A DNA stretch of 42,100 bases, from positions 15,245 to 57,344 of the forward strand of contig JAHFOX010000003.1 of NCBI GenBank assembly GCA_023261445.1, in the 5' to 3' direction. The notes beneath the pieces were generated by a model. That model ran no database searches. It had not been told where the DNA came from and saw only the letters and a list, made by a program, of their open reading frames with translations. Below, piece by piece: positions 6,900-21,060 of the stretch (positions within the stretch are counted from its first letter, which is position 1; each line of letters opens with the position of its first letter). This DNA is from Planctomycetota bacterium (lineage in GTDB: Bacteria; Planctomycetota; Brocadiia; Brocadiales; Brocadiaceae). The position numbers were made by a program, and so were the translations under genes.

Positions 6900-7008
6900 T
6901 TTAGTGCTAATTGTAGTATTTTGCTCTTTTTAGAAAATTCTAAGCAATAGTGCATATTTTACTTATTCAGTATTCCAAAGAATTTTGAAAATAAGGAGGT
7001 GGTGGGTT

Positions 7009-7182
7009 ATGAGAAAATTTTATATTTCTTTAATGGTGTTTGGAGCTCTTATGTTTGGGGTTGGTTTAACAAACGTTCCAATGCTTGTTAAATCTGCTAT
7101 CGCCGGCGCATGTGAGTGTCCGGAAGGATGTCCATGCAGTCATTGTTCAGGAAAATCCAAAGATTGTACGTGTAAGAAGTAA
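7009..7182 (+). CDS. Small secreted Cys-rich peptide A
   Basis: A 57-residue protein. The start is the ATG at 7009 because AAGGAGGT at 6993-7000 is an almost ideal ribosome-binding site 8 bases upstream; an upstream TTG in frame is not needed. Residues 1-32 form a signal peptide (RK, a hydrophobic core, then SAIA before G). The mature 25-residue peptide contains seven Cys in C-x-C, C-x-C and C-x-x-C spacings plus a His, with a basic KK end. This looks like a periplasmic or secreted metal-binding (metallothionein-like) or disulfide-rich peptide. It is followed 61 bases later by a second peptide of the same design. No named family is recognised. Confidence 0.75.
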   Translation: MRKFYISLMVFGALMFGVGLTNVPMLVKSAIAGACECPEGCPCSHCSGKSKDCTCKK

Positions 7183-9415: not shown

Positions 9416-9445
9416 TTGCATATTTTACAATATGTAGAATATAAT
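9416..9445 (+). promoter_or_regulatory. Promoter of the blaI-like copper operon
   Basis: TTGCAT at 9416-9421 and a perfect TATAAT at 9440-9445 are separated by 18 bases. The start of transcription should fall near 9452, about 40 bases before the blaI ATG. A TACA/TGTA dyad sits within the spacer, as expected for a repressor-controlled promoter. Confidence 0.65.
9426..9436. promoter_or_regulatory. Candidate BlaI/CopY operator 1
   Basis: TACA-ATA-TGTA is a perfect inverted repeat between the -35 and -10 boxes. BlaI/MecI and CopY repressors recognise TACA/TGTA half-sites, usually with a 2-base spacer; here the spacer is 3. Binding would block polymerase directly. Confidence 0.55.
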
Positions 9446-9492: not shown

Positions 9493-9975
9493 ATGAATAA
9501 ACAATTAGATTTAAAATTTAATTTTAATCCTTTCAAAGAAGGGTTAAACCAGGTACTTGGGACTCTAGAGAAGGATATTATGGAGGTATTGTGGCAACGC
9601 GGAGAGTCTTCAGTAAAAAACATTTTAGACATCTTTTCTGCCGACAGGGATGTCTCTTATTCAACAATAATTACCGTAACTAATCGAATGGCCAAAAAAG
9701 GCCTTCTTAAGAAAAGAAAAGTTAGAAAGGCGTATTTTTATAAGCCTACTCATACAAGAGAACAGTTTTATGAACTCGTATCAAAAAAGGTTGTGGAAGG
9801 AGTCTCTGGATTTTCTTTACAGACGGCAATAGTACACTTTATTGACTATATGGCACAAATAGACCCAGACAAGATAGAATATTTTTCGAAACTGATTGAG
9901 TCTAAAAGGCAAAAACAATCATTTACTACTAGAACGCAAAGAATTTTAAACAAGGGTTCAGAGAACACCGTATGA
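9493..9975 (+). CDS. BlaI/MecI/CopY-family repressor
   Basis: A 160-residue winged-helix regulator. The block from LGTLEKDIMEVLWQRGE to the SYSTIITVTNRMAKKGLL recognition helix and the KKRKVRKAYFY wing (about residues 20-95) is typical of the family; the C-terminal half would dimerise. Known members repress beta-lactamase, mecA or copper-transport genes and are inactivated by a membrane metalloprotease or by metal binding. Here no metal-binding CxC motif like that of CopY is present, so proteolysis by the next gene's product is the likely switch. Its TGA overlaps the ATG of the M56 gene (ATGA). No ribosome-binding site is evident before its own ATG. Confidence 0.88.
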   Translation: MNKQLDLKFNFNPFKEGLNQVLGTLEKDIMEVLWQRGESSVKNILDIFSADRDVSYSTIITVTNRMAKKGLLKKRKVRKAYFYKPTHTREQFYELVSKKVVEGVSGFSLQTAIVHFIDYMAQIDPDKIEYFSKLIESKRQKQSFTTRTQRILNKGSENTV

Positions 9976-10970
9976 AGTACTTTTTCAATAACCAGCAAGA
10001 GAAAGCCCAATTATATTTTGCGACTATTGTATTTATTAACTTTGTAATCTTGTGTATCGTGATTACGGGTATCGCAATTGGTATAAAAGGATATATATCC
10101 GATACCAAATCTGCTTATGATACTGTTACATGTTGTGGTAGTATTTGTTTAAAATGTTTTTTTACTTTACACACATTCTCTATAATGTTTCCATGGTGTT
10201 GTATCATTATCCTCTTCGTTGGAATTTGTATGGCCATTCATAAAACATGCTTGATGTTATCACGAAACTATACATTTACTCTTTCCACAGCCCTTCCCGT
10301 ATTCCTTAACAATCACCCTAAACTAAAAAATCTTATCTCTAATGAACATCTTTGTAGCCAAGTTGTGCTTTTGGATAATGCCAAACTACGTTTTGCCTTT
10401 ACATCTGGAATTTGGAAACCAAAAATATATTTATCTAAGGGTATTTGCTCATATCTAACCATAAAAGAACTCTTAGCAGTAATTCTCCACGAAAAACATC
10501 ATAAAGACAATAACGTTCCGTTAAAACTATTTATCATACAGGTACTCTATGCACTTAACTTTTTCCTCCCCATTAATCATTATTTGTTAAACCTATTTTC
10601 TGTAGCCTCCGAAAAGGCGGCAGACGACAATGCTGTGAATTTCTCTAGAGAACCTTTAGAGCTTGCAAGTGCGCTCGTAAAATTATCTAAATCTAATGCG
10701 ATAAGTATTACATCCCCCCCCATCTCGTTTTATAGTAGGCGAGAAGTTTTAGAAGACCGAATAAAACGCTTGTTGGAACCACAAGGAACATCCACCGACT
10801 TTGGTAAGGCACGTCTCTTTCCAAGAAAAGAGGCGTGTTTTTATCTTTCGTGTCTTTTGTCGTTTTTTGTTATGGCAACAATCTTTTTATCCTTGTTTTA
10901 TAAACCTGTTACATCAAATCATACAATGGGGTGTAAAACAAAGATATGCCGCATGGTAAAATGTGGCTAA
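9972..10970 (+). CDS. M56 (BlaR1-type) membrane zinc protease without sensor domain
   Basis: A 332-residue membrane protein. Hydrophobic segments lie near residues 17-41 and 66-90. The cytosolic metalloprotease part carries H173-E174-K-H-H177 and a downstream glutamate in SEKAADD (E214). A last transmembrane helix (about 290-310) precedes a short tail. BlaR1 has a long penicillin-binding sensor domain after that helix; here only about 20 residues follow, with three Cys, a His and two Met. Another Cys cluster (C54, C55, C59, C62) lies in the loop after the first helix. It would sense a signal, probably metal, and cleave the BlaI-type repressor whose gene it overlaps by 4 bases. The family call is firm; metal sensing is an inference. 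Confidence 0.85.
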   Translation: MKYFFNNQQEKAQLYFATIVFINFVILCIVITGIAIGIKGYISDTKSAYDTVTCCGSICLKCFFTLHTFSIMFPWCCIIILFVGICMAIHKTCLMLSRNYTFTLSTALPVFLNNHPKLKNLISNEHLCSQVVLLDNAKLRFAFTSGIWKPKIYLSKGICSYLTIKELLAVILHEKHHKDNNVPLKLFIIQVLYALNFFLPINHYLLNLFSVASEKAADDNAVNFSREPLELASALVKLSKSNAISITSPPISFYSRREVLEDRIKRLLEPQGTSTDFGKARLFPRKEACFYLSCLLSFFVMATIFLSLFYKPVTSNHTMGCKTKICRMVKCG

Positions 10971-11111
10971 TCTAATCGTTACCTGCTTCGAGATGTAGGC
11001 TAAAAGTTGTAAGTTGAAGATTGCGTATTTACACACTGAAGACTCTAACTAACGACTTCAAAAACAATCTTTTTGTGGTTTTGCATTATTGTATTTCCTG
11101 CGGAGCGTAGC

Positions 11112-12446
11112 ATGGCTAGAATACCATCCAAACAATTTATGCTGCTGTTCATCCTTCTTATTCCCTCCATTACAACCATTTTTGCTGAAGAAAAGATTAA
11201 CAGTAAAACTCAGACACAAATAAGTCCCAAAAATGTTATTACAGAAGTTAACAATCCAAAAGAGTCTTTGGATTTAAAATGGTTAATCCAAGAAGCTGTG
11301 GAACACAACCCTGAGATTATTGCTGCGCAGAAACGCATGAATGCTGCAAAGACAAGAATTTCACAGGCTAAGTCGTTGGAAGATCCATCCATCAGCGCCG
11401 GGTCATTTGATATGTCAAATAATCCGATAAATATTAATGGGCAAACAGAAATGCTTCAACAGCGGTACGGTGTTTCACAAAAAATACCATTCCCGGGGAA
11501 ACTGCGTCTCAGGAGTGAAGTGGCAATCGAAGAGTCTAACATGGTAGAAAAGGAATTGCAGGCAAAAATACAAGAGATTATAGCCCTCGTAAAATCCGCC
11601 TTCTACGAACTTTATTATATTGACAATGCTATTAATATTACAGAGGAAAATAGGGATCTGCTGCGCAAATTTACCAAAATCGCAGAAACAAAATATTCCG
11701 TAGGCAAGGCTACCCAGAGGGATGCACTTGCAGCACAGGTCGAATTATCTACATTAGCGAATAACCTTATAGTTTTAAACAAGGAAACGGAATCAATTAA
11801 CGCCCGTTTAAATACATTATTAGACAGACCCACACAGACTCCATTGGGAAGACCCCGCCCCTTTGAAAAGCATACCCTAACTTTAACGATAAAAGAATTA
11901 GAAGACCTTGCTGTTAAAAATCGTCCTGAGCTTAAAAGGTTTGACCACGCCGTTAAAAGGAACGATGCAAACTTAAAACTTTCAAAAAAAGATTATTACT
12001 ATTCAGACTTTGAACCGATGGTGGAATATATGCAGGAAGATAGACGGTCCGATACATGGGCATCTACCATCACGATCAATGTCCCGTGGCTTTGGCCTAA
12101 GAATCGTTCAAAAGTTAAAGAGTCAAAAGAAGACCTGAATGCTGCTAAGTCAGACTATCGCTTTATCAACAACAAGACATTATTTGAGGTCAAAGATTTT
12201 TTGGTCAAAATACAATCATCCGAAAGCACGGTAAATCTCTATAAAACAGGCATAATCCCACAGGCAGAACAATCCTTAAAAGCCGCACGAATCGGATATG
12301 AGGCAGACAAGGTGGATTTCCTTACCCTAATTGATAGCCAGAGGATTCTTTTAAATTCGAGGCTACTTTACTATAGGGCGCTGACTGATTTTGAACAAAA
12401 CCTGGCAAACATGGAAAGGGTTGTGGGTATGCAGTTGACGCAATAA
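11112..12446 (+). CDS. TolC-family outer-membrane efflux protein (CusC-like)
   Basis: A 444-residue outer-membrane factor. The start is the ATG at 11112, with GGAG 6 bases upstream; it gives a clean signal peptide (MARIPSKQF, a hydrophobic core, then IFA before EEK). An upstream TTG would add 13 residues in front of the signal peptide. The mature protein shows two helical-hairpin halves with typical phrases such as AQKRMNAAKTRISQAKS near residue 80 and LKAARIGYEADKVDFLTLID near residue 395. It would provide the outer-membrane exit channel for the CusBA pump encoded next. It is not a lipoprotein, unlike the second TolC relative at 18308. Confidence 0.88.
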   Translation: MARIPSKQFMLLFILLIPSITTIFAEEKINSKTQTQISPKNVITEVNNPKESLDLKWLIQEAVEHNPEIIAAQKRMNAAKTRISQAKSLEDPSISAGSFDMSNNPININGQTEMLQQRYGVSQKIPFPGKLRLRSEVAIEESNMVEKELQAKIQEIIALVKSAFYELYYIDNAINITEENRDLLRKFTKIAETKYSVGKATQRDALAAQVELSTLANNLIVLNKETESINARLNTLLDRPTQTPLGRPRPFEKHTLTLTIKELEDLAVKNRPELKRFDHAVKRNDANLKLSKKDYYYSDFEPMVEYMQEDRRSDTWASTITINVPWLWPKNRSKVKESKEDLNAAKSDYRFINNKTLFEVKDFLVKIQSSESTVNLYKTGIIPQAEQSLKAARIGYEADKVDFLTLIDSQRILLNSRLLYYRALTDFEQNLANMERVVGMQLTQ

Positions 12447-12547: not shown

Positions 12548-14536
12548 ATGTCCTTTAAGCAAAAGTTTCTTCACAATAAATATTTTATAATACCCGTGCT
12601 TGCTATCCCCAGTGTCCTTTTTGGCATACATTTTAGCATAAAAACCCATTACAAAGCGTTTCAACAAGATGGATCAAATTTTATTTCTTCCGCAAGCGCT
12701 GAAGAACTAAGAGAAAAGAAGATCCTTTATTGGACTTGCGGCATGCATCCCTCCGTTAAAATGGACAAACCAGGGAAATGTCCCATTTGCGCTATGGACC
12801 TGGTTCCTGTGTATGAAAAGGGTGCGGGCGTTGAAGAAGTCGGCGCACTGGCCACCATAGAACTGAGTGAGCGAGCACGCAAACTGGCACAAGTCAAAAC
12901 GGATACGGTTGGCTTCAGATCTTTAACCAAAGATATTTATACCGTGGGATTAATTGAATTTGACGAACGGCTCAAGTCCATAGTCTCTGCATGGATTCCA
13001 GGCAGGATTGATAAATTATTTGTTGATTTCACAGGTACACAGGTTGTAAAGGGAGAGTCCATGGTCTGGATATATAGCCCTGATCTTGTATCCACTCAGG
13101 AAGAATATCTGTTGGCGCTTGAAACCCTTGAAAAAGTCAAAGAAAGTCCTTTTGAAGAAGTAGTAAACGGCGCTAAATCGCTCATTGAAGCATCAAAAGG
13201 GAGATTATTATGGTGGGGTATTACAGATAAACAGATTGAAGAGCTTGCAAAAAACAAAAAAATAAAACAACATACTGTAATATATGCACCCATTAGCGGC
13301 ATTGTCACTGAGAAAAAGACGTTAGAAGGACAATATGTCATGCAGGGTGAAATGATATATGCCGTCGCAGATCTTTCGAATGTATGGATGAAGGCAAACA
13401 TCTATGAGTATGAAATGTCATGGATCAAGATCGGGCAGGAAGTAGAAGTCACAACGCCGACATATCCGGGAGAGGCATTTATAGGAAGGATATCTTTTAT
13501 AGAACCATTTCTGGATGATAAGACACGCTCAGTAAAGATACGATGTGATATCCCCAACCACCAAATGAAACTTAAACCTTCTATGTATATCAATGCCCGG
13601 ATACGGATACCTGTTGAAGAACTTGAAAAGCAGGGTGAAATCTATGTAAGTGGACTGGATTATGTCTGTCCCAATCATCCTGAAATAAAGTCCAGCAGAC
13701 CGGGTATATGCCCAGAGGATAATATCCCCTTCGAAATGAAACCCCCTGCCAAAACGGGTTTAGCCACTACGAGCGATTCATCAATGCAACAAGAAGGAAT
13801 TGAATACGAATATATCTGTCCTATGAAATGCTATGCATCAAAAGCCCCAGGAGATTGCCCACTATGTGGTATGCATCTTGAGAAACGGGAGATACCCGTT
13901 GGAATTTCCGGCGAAAAGTTAACGTGTATTTGTCCTCAAGAATGGGATCTTGCCACAGCCCCCAAGTCATGTCCCATGTGCGGCATGATGTTACAAAAGA
14001 GTATAACCATAACTTTACCCACCGGTGACAAGAAGCAAAAATTCGTATACATGTGTCCCATGGCCTGTATGACATCTGACAAACCGGGTGAATGTCCCGA
14101 TTGCAAGAGACGAATGGGTCGTTGGGAGGTAAAGGAAGATTTGGGAATTAAGGTAAAAAAAATAGAGCCTAAAAAACGCAGCGTTTATGCCTGCCCAATG
14201 CATCCTGATGTGACCTCTGATAAACCTGCTGATTGTACCAAGTGTGTAATGCATCTTGAGAAAACCACACAGGTATTAGCTATTCCAGCCACTGCAGTAT
14301 TGGATACAGGCATTCGAAAAATTGTCTATATAGACAAAGGCAACGGACAATATGTCGGAAAGGAAGTAACTCTCGGTACAAAGGCTGGTGATTATTATCC
14401 TGTTTTAGAAGGTCTTGAGGAGGGAGACAAGGTTGTCACATCAGCCAACTTCCTCATTGACTCTCAGAGCCAGCTTACAGGAGGAGCCAGTGCCCTGTAC
14501 GGCGGTGCGATGGAATTTAAGGAAGAACAAAAATAA
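12548..14536 (+). CDS. cusB: CusB-like RND adaptor with six heavy-metal-binding motifs
   Basis: A 662-residue periplasmic adaptor (membrane fusion protein) for the CusA pump; the usual CusB length is about 400. A membrane anchor or signal lies at residues 11-32. A heavy-metal-binding motif (YWTCGMHP...CPICAMDL) follows at 61-87, then the barrel-sandwich and hairpin region (about 100-290) and a beta-barrel to about 355. Five further Cys-rich motifs of the same kind are then inserted at about 372-397, 422-446, 459-484, 501-527 and 547-572, before the membrane-proximal domain resumes (VLAIPATAVLDTG) to the end. Motifs 1, 3 and 6 are nearest the consensus and 2, 4 and 5 are degenerate but keep Cys. 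The array probably captures or passes Cu(I)/Ag(I) to the pump. Confidence 0.9.
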   Translation: MSFKQKFLHNKYFIIPVLAIPSVLFGIHFSIKTHYKAFQQDGSNFISSASAEELREKKILYWTCGMHPSVKMDKPGKCPICAMDLVPVYEKGAGVEEVGALATIELSERARKLAQVKTDTVGFRSLTKDIYTVGLIEFDERLKSIVSAWIPGRIDKLFVDFTGTQVVKGESMVWIYSPDLVSTQEEYLLALETLEKVKESPFEEVVNGAKSLIEASKGRLLWWGITDKQIEELAKNKKIKQHTVIYAPISGIVTEKKTLEGQYVMQGEMIYAVADLSNVWMKANIYEYEMSWIKIGQEVEVTTPTYPGEAFIGRISFIEPFLDDKTRSVKIRCDIPNHQMKLKPSMYINARIRIPVEELEKQGEIYVSGLDYVCPNHPEIKSSRPGICPEDNIPFEMKPPAKTGLATTSDSSMQQEGIEYEYICPMKCYASKAPGDCPLCGMHLEKREIPVGISGEKLTCICPQEWDLATAPKSCPMCGMMLQKSITITLPTGDKKQKFVYMCPMACMTSDKPGECPDCKRRMGRWEVKEDLGIKVKKIEPKKRSVYACPMHPDVTSDKPADCTKCVMHLEKTTQVLAIPATAVLDTGIRKIVYIDKGNGQYVGKEVTLGTKAGDYYPVLEGLEEGDKVVTSANFLIDSQSQLTGGASALYGGAMEFKEEQK

Positions 14537-14673: not shown

Positions 14674-17600
14674 ATGATCAACAAACTTATTGAAATCTGC
14701 TTAAAAAACCGATTCCTCGTCATTTGCTTTTACCTCATGGTGATATTCGGCGGCGTCTTCGGATTAAAGAATATCAACATGGATGTCATACCTGATATTG
14801 GAGAAAACCAGTGCATCGTCTTTACCGATTGGCCTGGACGCAGTCCGCAGGACGTGGAAGATCAGGTTACCTATCCCCTAACGGTTAATCTACTCGGTGT
14901 ACCCGGCGTAAAGGTTATACGTTCCCAATCGGGATTTGGTTTTTCCATGATATTTATTATCTTTAAGGAAAAGACCGATTTTTACTGGGCGCGTTCCAGG
15001 GTTCTGGAGAGATTAAACTTTATCCAACAATTGCTGCCTAAAGACGTCACACCCAAGCTCGGCCCCGATGCCACAGGACTAGGACAAATCTTCTGGTATA
15101 CCGTGGAAGGCGAAGGATATGACCTGGGACAACTGCGCTCTATCCAGGATTGGTACATCCGCTATCAACTAAATGCCGTTGAAGGCGTCTCAGAAGTAGC
15201 AGGCGTGGGTGGCTTCGTTAAGCAATATCAGGTCGATGTTGATCCTAACAAACTGTTGGCATATAACATGACCGTGGGGATGGTGTATGAAGCCGTTGGC
15301 AAAAGCAATATAGACGTTGGCGCAAAGGTTGTGGAAAGTAACAATATGGAGTTCATCATACGCGGCCTTGGATTCATCAAAAATGTTACCGATATTGAAA
15401 ACATCACCGTGGGCAGTAATAACGGCGTACCTATATTTGTTAAAAACATCGGGACTGTCCAAGTGGGTGGTGATTTCAGGCGTGGGGCGCTGGACAAGGA
15501 AGGCGCTCCGGTAGCCGGTGGCATCGTTATCATGCGCCAAGGCCAAAATCCCTTAGAGATAATAAAGAGAGTAAAAAAGAAGATCAAAGAGATCGAACCG
15601 GGGTTGCCGCCGGGGGTAAAGATTGTGCCTTTTTATGACAGGGAAGGACTTATCCATCGTGTTATTGACACCCTTAAAGATGCGCTGATAGAAGAAATCA
15701 TTGTTACCTCCATTGTCGTAGTGATATTCCTGTTGCACGTTCGGAGCATCTTTATCTGTTGTCTTGGATTTCCCGTATCCATACTTATATCCTTCCTGTG
15801 CATGTATTTTATGGGTATTGACTCAAACATCATGTCCCTCACGGGTATCGCCATTGCCATTGGCGAGGTAAGCGATATGGCCATCGTCATGACGGAAAAT
15901 ATCTATAGAAACCTCCTGGAACAAAAAGACAAGAAAAGCAGGGCACAGATCATCCTTGACGCATCCAAAGAAGTCGGCGGCTCTATATTTTTTGCAGCAT
16001 TGACCACAATTTTTATGTTCTTTCCGGTATTTGGACTTACCGGGCAAGAAGGAAAGCTCTTTACTCCACTGGCCTGGACAAAGACCATTGCCATTGGGTC
16101 GTCGGTCATCATGGCAATTACCCTGACACCCGTGCTTTGTACCTTTCTCCTCAAGGGCAAAATAAAGCCCATGGAAGAAAATTATGCCTCAAGAATGCTC
16201 TTGAATGGGTATCAGCCTGTCCTTCGGTGGGTACTGGACCATAAAAAGGCATTTCTAGCCATTCCGCTCGCCATTGTTGTTTCTTCCGTTTTTCCCGCAA
16301 TGAGGCTGGGAAGAGAATTCATGCCCCCTCTGGATGAAGGCTCTATCCTCTTTATGCCTGTGATGTTACCCAGTGTATCATTAACAGAAGCCCTTAAAAT
16401 TATGCAAAAGCAAGATATGATTATTAAGTCCTTTCCTGAAGTTGATACAGTGGTCGGAAAATTAGGCAGGGCAGAGACCCCTACAGACCCGGCACCTGTC
16501 GAGATGTTTGAGACCGTTGTTGCCTTAAAACCAAAAGAGGAATGGCATAAAAAGAAAATAGAGTACAAATTCTTAAACTATGTACCCTCATTCCTCCACC
16601 CTGTTTTTCATTGGTTTCTTCCTTATGAACGAAGGATTACAAAACAGGAGATCATCAAGGATATAGACGAAGCAACGAGAATACCTGGCGTGGCAAATAT
16701 ATGGACACAACCGATTGTGAACAGGATTGACATGTTGTCTACCGGTATCCGTACATCAGTTGGTGTCAAGGTCTTTGGGCAAGACCTGAACGTCATACAA
16801 CAGTTGGCCATTGACGTAGAAAAGGCGTTGCGCGATGTCCCTGGGGTGGCAGACCTTTATGCAGAGCGGGTTACGGGAAAACCCTATATGGAATACAAGA
16901 TTAAACGTGAGGAAATCGCACGCTATGGTATCAATATCCGGGATGTACAGGACATCATTGAGACAGCCATTGGAGGAGAAAATATCACGACTACGATAGA
17001 AGGTCGTGAACGATACCCTGTGCGGGTCAGATACATTCGGGAACTGCGGGATAACTTTGACGCATTGAAAAGAATTTATGTCTCCAGTTCTACAGGTGCG
17101 CTTATCCCCATTACGCAAGTTGCAGATATCCGTTACGTAATGGGGCCTGCCATGATCAGTAGTGAAAACGCACTCCTGAGGGCGTATGTCCTTATGAACG
17201 TCCGTGGTAGAGACCCTCTAAGCTTTGTAGAAGAGGCTTCGAAAGTTGTAGCAAAAAAGGTAATGTTACCCCATGGGTACTTCATTCAGTGGAGCGGTCA
17301 GTATGAAAATCAGGTCAGGGCCAGGAAGAAATTACAAATCCTTGTACCTTTGGCAATGTTTGTTGGTTTTCTCCTGATTTTTATGGCGTTTAAATCTTTT
17401 CCACAAACAATGTTTATCCTGTTTGCAGGGATTCCTACAGCCATTGCAGGTGGCGTCTGGCTTCAATACTTATTTGGATACAACTTTAGTGTTGCCGTCT
17501 GGGTAGGTTTTATCTCCATCTTTGGCATTGTGGATGACGACTCCGTTCTTATTACTACCTATATTAATGATTTGTTTGGCAAAAAAAAGATGAAAAATGT

Positions 17601-17883
17601 TCAGGATATACGCGATACCATCTTGATGGCAGGCACGCGCAGGATACGGCCCTGTATGATGACGGCCGCCACTACATTTATTGGACTCGTTCCCATCCTA
17701 TGGGCAACTGGAGCTGGTGCCGAAGTAGCCAAACCCATGGCGATCCCCTCTATTGGAGGCATGGCCATGGCGCTGGTCAGTGTCTTCATAATCCCCTGTC
17801 TGAACGCCTGGCACAAGGAACACAAGTTAATGAAGGCATTAAAAAATGATTCCAGTATTGCAGAAACGGGCATGATTGTATAA
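14674..17883 (+). CDS. cusA: CusA-type heavy-metal RND efflux pump
   Basis: A 1069-residue inner-membrane proton-driven transporter of the heavy-metal RND class. The N-terminus has the diagnostic NMDVIPDIGENQ and WPGRSPQDVEDQVTYPL blocks. TM4 contains D401 and E408 (GEVSDMAIVMTEN), matching the proton-relay acids of CusA. The second periplasmic half has the class signature MPPLDEGSILFMP and GRAETPTDPAPVEM. An unusual DDD run sits in TM10 (GIVDDDSVLITTYIN). It would export Cu(I) or Ag(I) using the CusB-like adaptor and a TolC channel encoded just upstream. No ribosome-binding site is visible before the ATG. The motifs favour monovalent-metal (CusA) over CzcA type, but substrate is inferred mainly from the copper-related neighbours. 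Confidence 0.92.
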   Translation: MINKLIEICLKNRFLVICFYLMVIFGGVFGLKNINMDVIPDIGENQCIVFTDWPGRSPQDVEDQVTYPLTVNLLGVPGVKVIRSQSGFGFSMIFIIFKEKTDFYWARSRVLERLNFIQQLLPKDVTPKLGPDATGLGQIFWYTVEGEGYDLGQLRSIQDWYIRYQLNAVEGVSEVAGVGGFVKQYQVDVDPNKLLAYNMTVGMVYEAVGKSNIDVGAKVVESNNMEFIIRGLGFIKNVTDIENITVGSNNGVPIFVKNIGTVQVGGDFRRGALDKEGAPVAGGIVIMRQGQNPLEIIKRVKKKIKEIEPGLPPGVKIVPFYDREGLIHRVIDTLKDALIEEIIVTSIVVVIFLLHVRSIFICCLGFPVSILISFLCMYFMGIDSNIMSLTGIAIAIGEVSDMAIVMTENIYRNLLEQKDKKSRAQIILDASKEVGGSIFFAALTTIFMFFPVFGLTGQEGKLFTPLAWTKTIAIGSSVIMAITLTPVLCTFLLKGKIKPMEENYASRMLLNGYQPVLRWVLDHKKAFLAIPLAIVVSSVFPAMRLGREFMPPLDEGSILFMPVMLPSVSLTEALKIMQKQDMIIKSFPEVDTVVGKLGRAETPTDPAPVEMFETVVALKPKEEWHKKKIEYKFLNYVPSFLHPVFHWFLPYERRITKQEIIKDIDEATRIPGVANIWTQPIVNRIDMLSTGIRTSVGVKVFGQDLNVIQQLAIDVEKALRDVPGVADLYAERVTGKPYMEYKIKREEIARYGINIRDVQDIIETAIGGENITTTIEGRERYPVRVRYIRELRDNFDALKRIYVSSSTGALIPITQVADIRYVMGPAMISSENALLRAYVLMNVRGRDPLSFVEEASKVVAKKVMLPHGYFIQWSGQYENQVRARKKLQILVPLAMFVGFLLIFMAFKSFPQTMFILFAGIPTAIAGGVWLQYLFGYNFSVAVWVGFISIFGIVDDDSVLITTYINDLFGKKKMKNVQDIRDTILMAGTRRIRPCMMTAATTFIGLVPILWATGAGAEVAKPMAIPSIGGMAMALVSVFIIPCLNAWHKEHKLMKALKNDSSIAETGMIV

Positions 17884-17963
17884 CTAAGAATTGAATTACC
17901 AGTAATATTGTTTTACGCTTTCGAATAGTAATTTTGGTTGCCCTTTCAAGTGGGGGAATGACA

Positions 17964-18308
17964 ATGATAGTACGGATAGTAACGACCGTTTTGTATTTGA
18001 CACTGTTGACGGGTTGTGCTAGCCATACACTCCAACTACCAATATCTACCAACGACCCTGCAAATCCTAACGCCCCGGAAGCTGCGTTTTCTCCACGGCC
18101 TAATTGGCTCCAAAGCGAGGTTCCTGTCACAGCGGAACAACCAACTGCCGAACCAACTGCTCCTACACGTCTCCCCACAACCACAGCCACAATGTACACC
18201 TGCCCAATGCACCCCGAAGTAATACAATCAAGCCTAGGCAAATGCCCTGAGTGTGGGATGAAACTAGTTCCGAAAGAACCTTCCAAAACCGAAACGGAGG
18301 GTAAATAA
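17964..18308 (+). CDS. Heavy-metal-binding lipoprotein
   Basis: A 114-residue protein. The ATG at 17964 is preferred, with GGGGG 7 bases upstream; TTG and ATG codons further upstream are in frame. It begins with a lipoprotein signal ending LLTGC (C18), then a Pro/Thr/Ala-rich flexible linker, and a single heavy-metal-binding domain at about residues 78-103: YTCPMHPEV followed by CPECGMKL. It is probably lipid-anchored and could hand copper to the oxidase or the efflux channel. Its TAA shares one base with the next ATG (TAATG), indicating tight coupling with the second TolC gene. Base composition becomes clearly more GC-rich from here than in the operon's upstream genes. Confidence 0.78.
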   Translation: MIVRIVTTVLYLTLLTGCASHTLQLPISTNDPANPNAPEAAFSPRPNWLQSEVPVTAEQPTAEPTAPTRLPTTTATMYTCPMHPEVIQSSLGKCPECGMKLVPKEPSKTETEGK

Positions 18309-19771
18309 TGACACATAGATTGATAGCCAAATTTATAACGCTCATGTGTATTGGAGTAGTTATTGGCTGTGCATCGGTTCCTAAAGAGGCTGGATTTCCG
18401 GATGTCCAGAAGCTTATAGAACAACGCATTGGTTGGCGGGTGCATTGGAATCAGGGTACACCTGAGGATACTGCGGTTGCTGATGCTGTTCGGTCCATGC
18501 TGCGGCAGGAATTAACCCCGGACGCGGCCGTGCAGATTGCACTGCTCAACAACCGATCCTTACAGGCAACGTATGAAGACCTTGGAATTGCTCAGGCTGA
18601 TGTTGTTCAGGCCGGTTTGCTGAGAAACCCTGTTTTTTTGGCCAGCTTCCGATTTCAGGATAAGGCTATAGGCGGACATCGCAGTACTAACACCGAGTTT
18701 TCGGTGGATCAGGATTTTCTTGATTTGTTTGTGCGTCCGTTGAGGAAGAAGGTAGCTGCTGAGCAGTTTGAACAAGAGAAGTTGCGTATCGGTAATGCAA
18801 TATTGAACCTTGCCGCGGAGGTGCGGTCAGCTTATTATATTCTGCTGGCAGATGAGCAAATGTTGGAGATGCGCCGAACAGTGTCCCGGGCTACAGAAGC
18901 CGCAGCGGACATTGCTGGTCGCCAGCATGAGGCTGGTACTTTAAGAACGCTTGACCTAACCAATCAGCAGGGATTCCACGCTCAGGCGAAGCTTGATGTC
19001 GTGCGCATAGAGACCATGATTATTGCTGACCGTGAGCGTTTGAATCGCCTGATGTGGCTTTGGGGGACAGATACAACATGGAAACTTCCTAATAGGCTGC
19101 CAGAGCTACCAAAAGCCGAAGTCGCCCTGGAGCATCTGGAATCTACGGCTGTATCGCAACGCTTGGATATTGCCGCTGCACATCACGAAACACAAGCCAT
19201 TGCTCATGCCCTGTTATTGACGAAAAAGTTCCGGTATGTTTCTATGCTCGACTTTGGCGTTGATACTGAGCACGATGTCGCCGATGGCGTAAATCTTACA
19301 GGACCTCACCTGACAATCGAACTTCCAATCTTTGATCAACGACAGGCAAAGATCGCCAGGATAGAGGCACAGTTGCGGCAGAGCCAGCAGCGTCTCTCTT
19401 CCCTGTCAATTGATATACGTTCGGAGGTCCGGGAGGCACGTGACCGGTTAATGGCATCCAGAAATGTTGTCAAATACTACCACGACGTCGTTCTCCCCCT
19501 GCGGCAACGTATTGTGGATGAGTCACAGCTTTATTACAATGGCATGCTTATTGGGGTTTATGAGTTGCTCCTGGCGAAACAAAACCAGATCAACGCAGGC
19601 CGCGAATACATCGAGGCGTTGAGGGATTATTGGACCGCAAGGTCTGACGTGGATCGAGCCGTTGGGGGTCGCCTGAGAGATATAGCTGAAACTCCGCAAC
19701 CGCCCACACAACCGGTGGAACAATCAGCTACACAGCCATCCAAATCATTTGAACTTATTCATCAGCATTAA
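18308..19771 (+). CDS. TolC-family outer-membrane lipoprotein
   Basis: A 487-residue second outer-membrane factor, with a lipoprotein signal (GVVIGC, lipid Cys C21). Two repeats of TolC type follow, with LTPDAAVQIALLNNRSLQ near residue 71 and VYELLLAKQNQINAGREYIEALRDYWTARSDVDRAVGG near the C-terminus. It resembles the TolC proteins that sit next to multicopper oxidases in copper-resistance loci more than the first TolC of this operon. It overlaps the metal-binding lipoprotein gene by one base, and the oxidase follows 11 bases later. The codons are rich in G and C (one 60-base stretch near 18481 is about 60 percent GC), unlike most of the window. Confidence 0.85.
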   Translation: MTHRLIAKFITLMCIGVVIGCASVPKEAGFPDVQKLIEQRIGWRVHWNQGTPEDTAVADAVRSMLRQELTPDAAVQIALLNNRSLQATYEDLGIAQADVVQAGLLRNPVFLASFRFQDKAIGGHRSTNTEFSVDQDFLDLFVRPLRKKVAAEQFEQEKLRIGNAILNLAAEVRSAYYILLADEQMLEMRRTVSRATEAAADIAGRQHEAGTLRTLDLTNQQGFHAQAKLDVVRIETMIIADRERLNRLMWLWGTDTTWKLPNRLPELPKAEVALEHLESTAVSQRLDIAAAHHETQAIAHALLLTKKFRYVSMLDFGVDTEHDVADGVNLTGPHLTIELPIFDQRQAKIARIEAQLRQSQQRLSSLSIDIRSEVREARDRLMASRNVVKYYHDVVLPLRQRIVDESQLYYNGMLIGVYELLLAKQNQINAGREYIEALRDYWTARSDVDRAVGGRLRDIAETPQPPTQPVEQSATQPSKSFELIHQH

Positions 19772-19782
19772 GGAGATTAATC

Positions 19783-21060
19783 ATGATTACTCGACGCAAA
19801 ATGCTTCTTTCCAGCGCAGCGGCATTGCTAACTGGCGGTGTCTCCATGTTGCTAGGCCGCAAACAACTCGAAGCAATAGGCACACAGACCACTACACAGC
19901 CCTCCCCTATTATGTCACCCATACAAGGTTTGTCATATACACCGGTAATTATACCCAATGGGAGTACACTCCCCTGGAAGTGGGACAATGGTGTTAAAGT
20001 ATTTCACTTGATCGCCGAGCCAGTCAAGCGGGAGTTTGCGCCAGGAATGATCGTTAATTGCTGGGGTTATAACGGACAGACACCAGGCCCGACGATTGAG
20101 GTGGTGGAGGGTGATCGTGTACGCATCTTAGTCACCAACAAGATTGCAGAACATACAACGATCCACTGGCACGGTGTACTCCTGCCAAATGGTATGGACG
20201 GTGTCGGAGGATTGAACCAGCCGCAAATTAAACCGGGCGAGACCTATGCCTATGAATTTACCCTCCGTCAGCACGGCACGCAGATGTATCACCCGCACGC
20301 CGATGAGATGGTGCAAATGGCAATGGGAATGGAGGGCTTTTTCATTATACATCCAAAGAAGCCGGAGCAGCCTCAGATCGACCGGGACTTCTGCATCTTC
20401 CTGCAGGAATGGTTAGTCGAACCTGGCACAAGTACTCCAAATCCAAACATCATGACCGATTTCAACCTCTTTACGTTCAATAGTCGCGTTTTCCCAGGTA
20501 CTGCGCCGTTGATAGCGCGTCTGGGGGATCGTGTGCGTATACGGATTGCTAACCTAAGTATGGATTCTCACCCGATCCACCTGCATGGTTATAACTTCAA
20601 GATTACTGGCACTGATGGTGGGCAGATATCACCCTCTGCACAGTGGCCTGAGACCACAGCCAACGTTCCACCGGGTACCACACGTGACATAGAGTTCGTG
20701 GCCAATGCACCCGGAGACTGGGCTTTTCACTGCCACAAGACCCATCACACCATGAATGCTATGAGTCATACCGTACCAAACATGATAGGTGTAAAACAAA
20801 AAGGATTGGAACAGAAAGTCCAGAATCTCCTACCAGATTATATGGCAATGGGCGAAAGCGGAATGGCCGAAATGGCCGAAATGAACATGCCCTTACCAAG
20901 AAACACACTCCCTATGATGACCGGGAAAGGACCATTTGGTCCAGTTGAGATGGGCGGGATGTTTACCGTGTTAAAGGTGCGCGAGGGTATTACTGGGTAC
21001 GATGACCCCGGCTGGTACGAACACCCAGAAGGCACTGTAGCTTGGCGAATAGCTGAATAA
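19783..21060 (+). CDS. Tat-exported two-domain multicopper oxidase
   Basis: A 425-residue copper oxidase. The N-terminus TRRKMLLSSAAALL is a twin-arginine signal. All four copper motifs are present: H128-W-H130, H170-P-H172, H263-P-I-H266-L-H268, and H316-C317-H318 with H322 and M327 (type 1 copper Cys, His and Met). The spacing allows only two cupredoxin domains (about 75-195 and 205-340), as in small laccases, not the three of CueO or CopA; small laccases act as trimers. A Met-rich tail (residues 353-393, with MAEMAEMNM) may bind Cu(I). It probably oxidises periplasmic Cu(I) to the less toxic Cu(II). AAGGAG lies 7 bases before the ATG. It is the last gene of the copper island; no terminator is clear after it. 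Confidence 0.9.
   Translation: MITRRKMLLSSAAALLTGGVSMLLGRKQLEAIGTQTTTQPSPIMSPIQGLSYTPVIIPNGSTLPWKWDNGVKVFHLIAEPVKREFAPGMIVNCWGYNGQTPGPTIEVVEGDRVRILVTNKIAEHTTIHWHGVLLPNGMDGVGGLNQPQIKPGETYAYEFTLRQHGTQMYHPHADEMVQMAMGMEGFFIIHPKKPEQPQIDRDFCIFLQEWLVEPGTSTPNPNIMTDFNLFTFNSRVFPGTAPLIARLGDRVRIRIANLSMDSHPIHLHGYNFKITGTDGGQISPSAQWPETTANVPPGTTRDIEFVANAPGDWAFHCHKTHHTMNAMSHTVPNMIGVKQKGLEQKVQNLLPDYMAMGESGMAEMAEMNMPLPRNTLPMMTGKGPFGPVEMGGMFTVLKVREGITGYDDPGWYEHPEGTVAWRIAE

Follow-up and report, generated by a model that had tools for sequence, protein, structure and literature searches.

A BlaR1-type M56 protease with two cysteine clusters as a putative copper or silver sensor of a Cus efflux operon in Brocadiaceae

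The window, a stretch of 42,100 nucleotides from the metagenome-assembled genome of a planctomycete of the family Brocadiaceae, which its relatives mark as an anammox bacterium, contains a forward-strand gene cluster in which a BlaI/MecI/CopY-type repressor (9493-9975, 160 aa, no Cys; Pfam Penicillinase_R, 3.8e-25) overlaps by 4 bp at its 3΄ end with an M56 membrane metalloprotease, here regarded as a putative metal sensor (9972-10970, 332 aa). The genes that follow encode a TolC/CusC-like outer-membrane factor (OMF; 11073-12446; Pfam OEP, 1.3e-45), which is syntenic in relatives and for which translation more likely starts from the ATG at 11112; a CusB-type adaptor (12548-14536; HlyD_D23, 1e-72) with five heavy-metal-binding (HMBD) repeats (HMBD, 2.9e-34, five stretches); a CusA heavy-metal RND pump (14674-17883; TIGR00914, 1041.6 bits against a cut-off of 701); a small lipoprotein-like protein with one HMBD (17934-18308; Pfam HMBD, 3.6e-12), found in the same order in L042; a second OMF (18308-19771; Pfam OEP, 6e-29); and a multicopper oxidase (19783-21060; Cu-oxidase_3, 3e-40), the probable end of the operon, beyond which the next long frame lies on the opposite strand. 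The initial annotation had described the M56 gene as flanked by genes for a BlaI repressor and a Cus pump, and this arrangement is borne out. Elsewhere in the window, positions 6985-7182 encode a small, secreted-looking, Cys-rich protein, CECPEGCPCSHCSGKSKDCTCKK, which had no Pfam match, is conserved in relatives in the vicinity of the ribosomal L13/S9 genes and is present as a second copy in some of them; it appears metallothionein-like.

Upstream of the repressor gene, a –35 element TTGCAT (9416-9421) and a –10 element TATAAT (9440-9445) are separated by an 18-bp spacer, which is filled by a putative operator palindrome, ATTTTACAATATGTAGAAT (9422-9440), with one mismatch to ATTCTACAnnnTGTAGAAT; all three elements are on the forward strand. 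The palindrome is conserved in the upstream stretches of relatives: ATTCTACAnnnTGTAGAAT was found with three or fewer mismatches in 49 of 56 such stretches (one duplicate included), representing all groups, with TTGCAT or TTGACA at the same spacing 5΄ of BlaI in nearly all relatives and with TATAAT-like –10 elements. In a whole-genome scan, 9422-9440 was the sole site with at most one mismatch to ATTCTACAnnnTGTAGAAT. A generic promoter scan did not pick out the operon promoter, because TTGCAT is a weak –35 element.

The repressor of the window matched MecI and BlaI structures, which have the BlaI-fold winged helix. Its residue F116 aligns with F102 of Staphylococcus aureus BlaI/MecI, at the P1΄ position of the known staphylococcal cleavage site, N101-F102, and the aligned residue was Phe in 55 of 58 BlaI proteins and Leu or Ile in the others. 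We also considered the possibility that this repressor itself senses cytoplasmic copper in the manner of CopY, with the M56 protein serving only to clear or fine-tune BlaI. The nearest NCBIfam model to the repressor is indeed CopY_TcrY (1.1e-14, far below the cut-off); however, the window BlaI contains no Cys, those of relatives contain from zero to three, and the CopY motif CxCx4CxC was found in none of them. We accordingly rejected direct copper sensing of the CopY kind and consider this explanation highly improbable.

The frame at 9972-10970 is intact (332 codons) and encodes a BlaR1-type M56 protease (Peptidase_M56, E = 1.6e-10, above the Pfam cut-off). A profile built from the family of the window protein matched the chains of the S. 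aureus BlaR1 cryo-EM structure (E = 4e-7), and BlaR1 (8exq) was the best Foldseek match (E = 5e-4) of an AlphaFold2 model of the window protein with a mean pLDDT of 73.6. As the initial annotation had recognized, the zinc-protease motif is kept (H173-E174-K-H-H177, HExxH, at 10488-10502, with E214xxxD218 beyond it in the family alignment); H173, H177, E214 and D218 are present in 55 of 55 family members and E174 in 54 of 55. R266 is retained as well, unlike the BlaR1 residues D210 and Y261, which correspond to V182 (Asp in 43 of 55 family members) and L231 (Leu family-wide and rarely Met or Ile among the 55). Catalysis by the window protein could therefore differ from that of BlaR1, which counts against the sensor reading set out below. 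A C-terminal penicillin-binding sensor domain with SxxK is absent from the 332 residues, and the score against the NCBIfam model blaR1_generic was 22.7 bits, compared with a cut-off of 400. The proposal that the protein had swapped a penicillin sensor, implying descent from BlaR1, was not upheld; M56 is a broad family, and no penicillin sensors were recognized among the control M56 proteins read here. The source genome encodes a single M56 protein above the Pfam cut-off and a single BlaI.

Two Cys clusters distinguish the protein, both of them as initially described. The first, C54-C55-x3-C59-x2-C62 (10131-10157, forward strand; intervening residues GSI and LK), lies in the first loop, at the position of the BlaR1 extracellular loop EL1 in the alignment to BlaR1 (PMC9834060). 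The second, C321-x4-C326-x4-C331 (10932-10964, forward strand), lies where the BlaR1 sensor domain begins in the family alignment, within a tail of 18-26 residues that ends in TSNHTMGCKTKICRMVKCG and follows a last hydrophobic helix at about 288-306 (reaching 314 in the model). An alignment of orthologues had been set as a check of Cys conservation, and the residues proved to be conserved in copper-operon orthologues. All 30 orthologues aligned at first, which come from the same taxonomic order and have identities down to 37%, keep the three tail Cys, and the four loop Cys are kept in them almost without exception. In the family of 55, C62 and C321 are each present in 55 members, C55 is present in 54 (the sole exception is an N-terminally short frame), and C326 and C331 are present in 50, with all five exceptions adjoining cytochrome c genes rather than Cus genes. 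Outside the protease core, the loop and tail Cys form the best conserved part of the family. We rejected chance conservation because the 30 orthologues keep the tail Cys and nearly all of the loop Cys, and rejected lineage-wide Cys richness as well, given that the other Cys of the M56 proteins vary among the 55 members and that BlaI is almost Cys-free. In the third phylum described below, the tail at the same position typically reads C-x4-C..H....C-x3-C with a His-rich end.

In BlaR1, EL1 (residues 56-96) precedes helix 3, the active site is cytoplasmic and the C-terminal sensor is extracellular; signalling begins when EL1, which is docked in the sensor, is displaced (PMC9834060). Helix 2 of the family profile aligns to BlaR1 from residue 106, past EL1, and the last helix aligns up to residue 335, where the sensor begins. 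Combined with the published BlaR1 topology (PMC9834060), this alignment places both Cys sites outside the membrane, and we infer that the Cys loop replaces EL1 and the Cys tail replaces the sensor. The tail was modelled with low confidence (pLDDT < 50), so any contact of the tail with the loop is conjectural.

The family comprises 55 relatives from four phylum-level groups, and its named anammox members include Brocadia, Jettenia, Kuenenia and Loosdrechtia. One phylum (centred on L083) yielded members in 3 of 24 genomes and Nitrospirota (with L082 as the centre) in 6 of 396, where a seventh genome gave a match at 7e-21 that falls outside the family; in a third phylum, for which the 'Deltaproteobacteria' MAG of L088 was the centre, members came from about 15 of 395 genomes. 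Among relatives with enough contig, 51 of 53 have BlaI directly 5΄ of the M56 gene, and 42 of 48 have an OMF, CusB or CusA gene 3΄ of it; the six without a downstream pump gene are the five cytochrome-c-linked members and L169. The order BlaI-M56-OMF-CusB-CusA recurs among the relatives, in some of which a cupredoxin gene separates M56 from OMF. Some members of the third phylum have in that place an uncharacterized secreted protein with weak YtkA/DUF4426-like matches (L160:7844-8248, L162:6666-7040, L163:6477-6872 and L168:7941-8321), which is possibly a CusF analogue. In Brocadia carolinensis (L057:9461-10493), the M56 gene is in two frames and CusB is in several pieces, reflecting either a broken operon or assembly errors.

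For comparison, we used a control set of 40 other planctomycete M56 regions and eight more (48 M56 proteins), in which a single protein (L172) had three or more Cys among its final 45 residues and a single one was near a CusA-like pump (L089, of a separate BlaI-M56-CzcA type). The former (L172:6922-7959) is a distant M56 protein accompanied by BlaI, and no Cus pump was found near it. The possibility that the family consists of ordinary planctomycete M56 proteins was rejected, as the 40 planctomycete controls have neither the Cys tail nor a Cus pump and a branch with an SH-aLRT value of 92 set the family apart in a maximum-likelihood tree (quick method). A scan of viral contigs revealed no carriage of the family, and a search for plasmid spread of the Cys type yielded no full-length matches and led instead to a His type described below.

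The metal class of the operon was read from its pump. In an alignment to E. coli CusA (3t51), M561, M611 and M687 of the window CusA correspond to M573, M623 and M672, the methionines that line the Cu/Ag path. This triad is present in all 30 of the long CusA proteins adjoining family members, including that of the window, and with its membership in the CusA/CzcA family, the pump can be assigned to the Cus-type Cu/Ag RND pumps (HME-RND4). Because a Met-triad CusA, a multicopper oxidase and HMBD proteins occur together, we infer that Cu/Ag is also the metal class of the sensed signal, and the conservation of the Cys residues tracks linkage to a Met-triad CusA. Alternatively, the M56 protein might sense another extracytoplasmic signal, such as envelope damage, an apo-protein, or Hg, Zn or Cd, and its Cys residues might hold a structural metal: Cys sites often hold Zn, and the metal cannot be named from sequence alone. 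Since linkage to genes for Met-triad CusA, HMBD proteins, cupredoxins and multicopper oxidases points to Cu/Ag, we regard this alternative as quite unlikely.

The His type occurs in BlaI-M56-TolC-HlyD-CzcA operons on plasmids of Shewanella, Pseudoalteromonas and Glaciecola and on one Paraglaciecola chromosome, with HupE/UreJ annotated next in the operon in the Shewanella and Pseudoalteromonas records. The Alteromonadales M56 proteins (L220:3022-4002, L221:8533-9507, L226:7001-7990, L228:7001-7981 and L089:7719-8693) are 29-79% identical and share nine invariant His; the protease motif accounts for two of these, and the other seven belong to the loop (HWHH-x7-SSWH type) and the tail (HH...H). 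The CzcA pumps of these operons lack the Met triad. An M56 protein with 79% identity is also found on a Salmonella enterica plasmid record (NZ_CP100354.1). The same two places thus carry His in M56 proteins that accompany a divalent-type pump and Cys in those that accompany a Cu/Ag-type pump; as few independent lineages are involved, this match of ligand to pump type is suggestive. Other pairs were also noted: on two Bacillota (Bacillus-group) plasmids, arsenic resistance genes surround BlaI-M56 pairs in which the M56 loop is CCN-x-H (L223:4570-5828 and L227:4576-5816), the Priestia plasmid pair is accompanied by copper resistance genes too, and one M56 protein with a CCN-x-H loop has a heavy-metal P-type ATPase and a copper-binding four-helix protein encoded nearby.

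The five members lacking the full tail form one Nitrospirota clade (L082, L084, L085, L086 and L087) beside ResB and CcsA-type cytochrome c biogenesis genes; they keep the loop Cys, and their tail is C-x4-H. That these relatives retain the loop Cys without a copper pump argues against the metal-sensor reading, and they suggest that the same M56 scaffold reads other signals too. They also bear on the chief rival of that reading, namely a thiol-redox sensor in which disulfides formed by the extracytoplasmic Cys under copper or oxidative stress, and not metal binding, activate the protease. The CC and C-x2-C pairs can form disulfides, and this sister clade with the same loop lies beside genes for a process in which thiol redox matters. 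However, additional His and Met and extra Cys in the tail are confined to pump-linked members, an odd number of tail Cys is common, and the divalent-pump counterpart has His instead of Cys at both places. A redox switch therefore appears unlikely.

We consider it probable that the M56 protein senses extracytoplasmic Cu(I)/Ag(I) as a one-component transmembrane sensor and acts by proteolysis of BlaI. The BlaI partner, the operator, the Phe at P1΄ and the homology-based topology all fit a transmembrane protease sensor. In the absence of metal, BlaI dimers would occupy the palindrome between the –35 and –10 elements and repress the operon together with their own gene. When periplasmic Cu(I)/Ag(I) rises, the metal would be bound by thiols of the helix 1-2 loop and the C-terminal tail, which are predicted to share one side of the membrane and might be bridged by the metal. 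The resulting movement of the flanking helices would activate the cytoplasmic zinc protease, which would cut BlaI in its dimerization region, before F116; the cut repressor would leave the DNA, and the Cus pump, the HMBD proteins and the multicopper oxidase would be made.

More broadly, there is perhaps an even chance that BlaI-M56 pairs are a modular type of transmembrane metal sensor in general use for the control of efflux operons. Metal held between EL1 and the tail would then replace beta-lactam acylation, with Cys serving for Cu(I)/Ag(I) alongside Met-triad CusA (Brocadiaceae, Nitrospirota and others) and His for divalent metals alongside CzcA-HupE (Shewanella, Pseudoalteromonas and Glaciecola). 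If the sensor reading is true, anammox bacteria and several groundwater phyla control copper efflux without a two-component system or a cytoplasmic metalloregulator, and a minimal sensor made up of a few ligands is enough for a BlaR1-type protease to detect metals. The matching of ligand to metal can be tested directly through the contrast of Cys with His in the two pump types, and copper handling matters in anammox wastewater reactors.

Among known systems, BlaR1/BlaI and MecR1/MecI of staphylococci and bacilli share with the window pair the M56 gluzincin core (HExxH, ExxxD), an adjacent BlaI and a palindromic operator, and in both cases the sensor parts occupy the EL1 position and the stretch that follows the last helix. 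In contrast to BlaR1 and MecR1, the window protein has a Cys loop and tail instead of a penicillin-binding sensor domain, fewer N-terminal helices, and changes at the equivalents of D210 and Y261, the former being needed for induction by BlaR1 in Bacillus licheniformis (PMC9834060). CopY of Enterococcus and streptococci is likewise a BlaI-fold repressor of a copper efflux operon; however, CopY itself binds copper via CxCx4CxC, a site that the window BlaI lacks, and the operator spacing is TACA-N3-TGTA in the window, compared with N2 for CopY (PMC7253601). E. coli CusRS/CusCFBA resembles the window locus in having a Met-triad Cu/Ag-type CusA and relatives of CusB and CusC, and in sensing its signal outside the inner membrane, as proposed for the window M56 from its predicted topology, whereas the window locus has no histidine kinase or response regulator, and a repressor and protease are proposed in their place. 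The closest functional precedent is PetR/PetP of Synechocystis. According to published accounts, PetP (Slr0241), of the BlaR1 family, degrades PetR, of the BlaI family, in response to copper (PMC7896320, PMC13421787), and protease-based copper sensing is thus not unprecedented. As described there, a BlaI-family regulator lies beside an M56 membrane protease in both cases, and activation of PetP by copper with degradation of PetR is the scheme that, by analogy, we propose for the window pair. By the same accounts, PetRP differs in switching plastocyanin and cytochrome c6, that is, copper supply, whereas the window operon serves efflux. Homologues with no assigned role have been noted in Planctomycetota and other phyla (PMC10141476). 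In a literature search, which was short on subscription journals, neither a version serving Cus efflux nor the Cys loop and tail turned up in any paper. Copper-activated M56/BlaI proteolysis, a rare scheme, is already known from the cyanobacterial PetP/PetR system, of which the proposed sensor for Cus efflux would be a variant.
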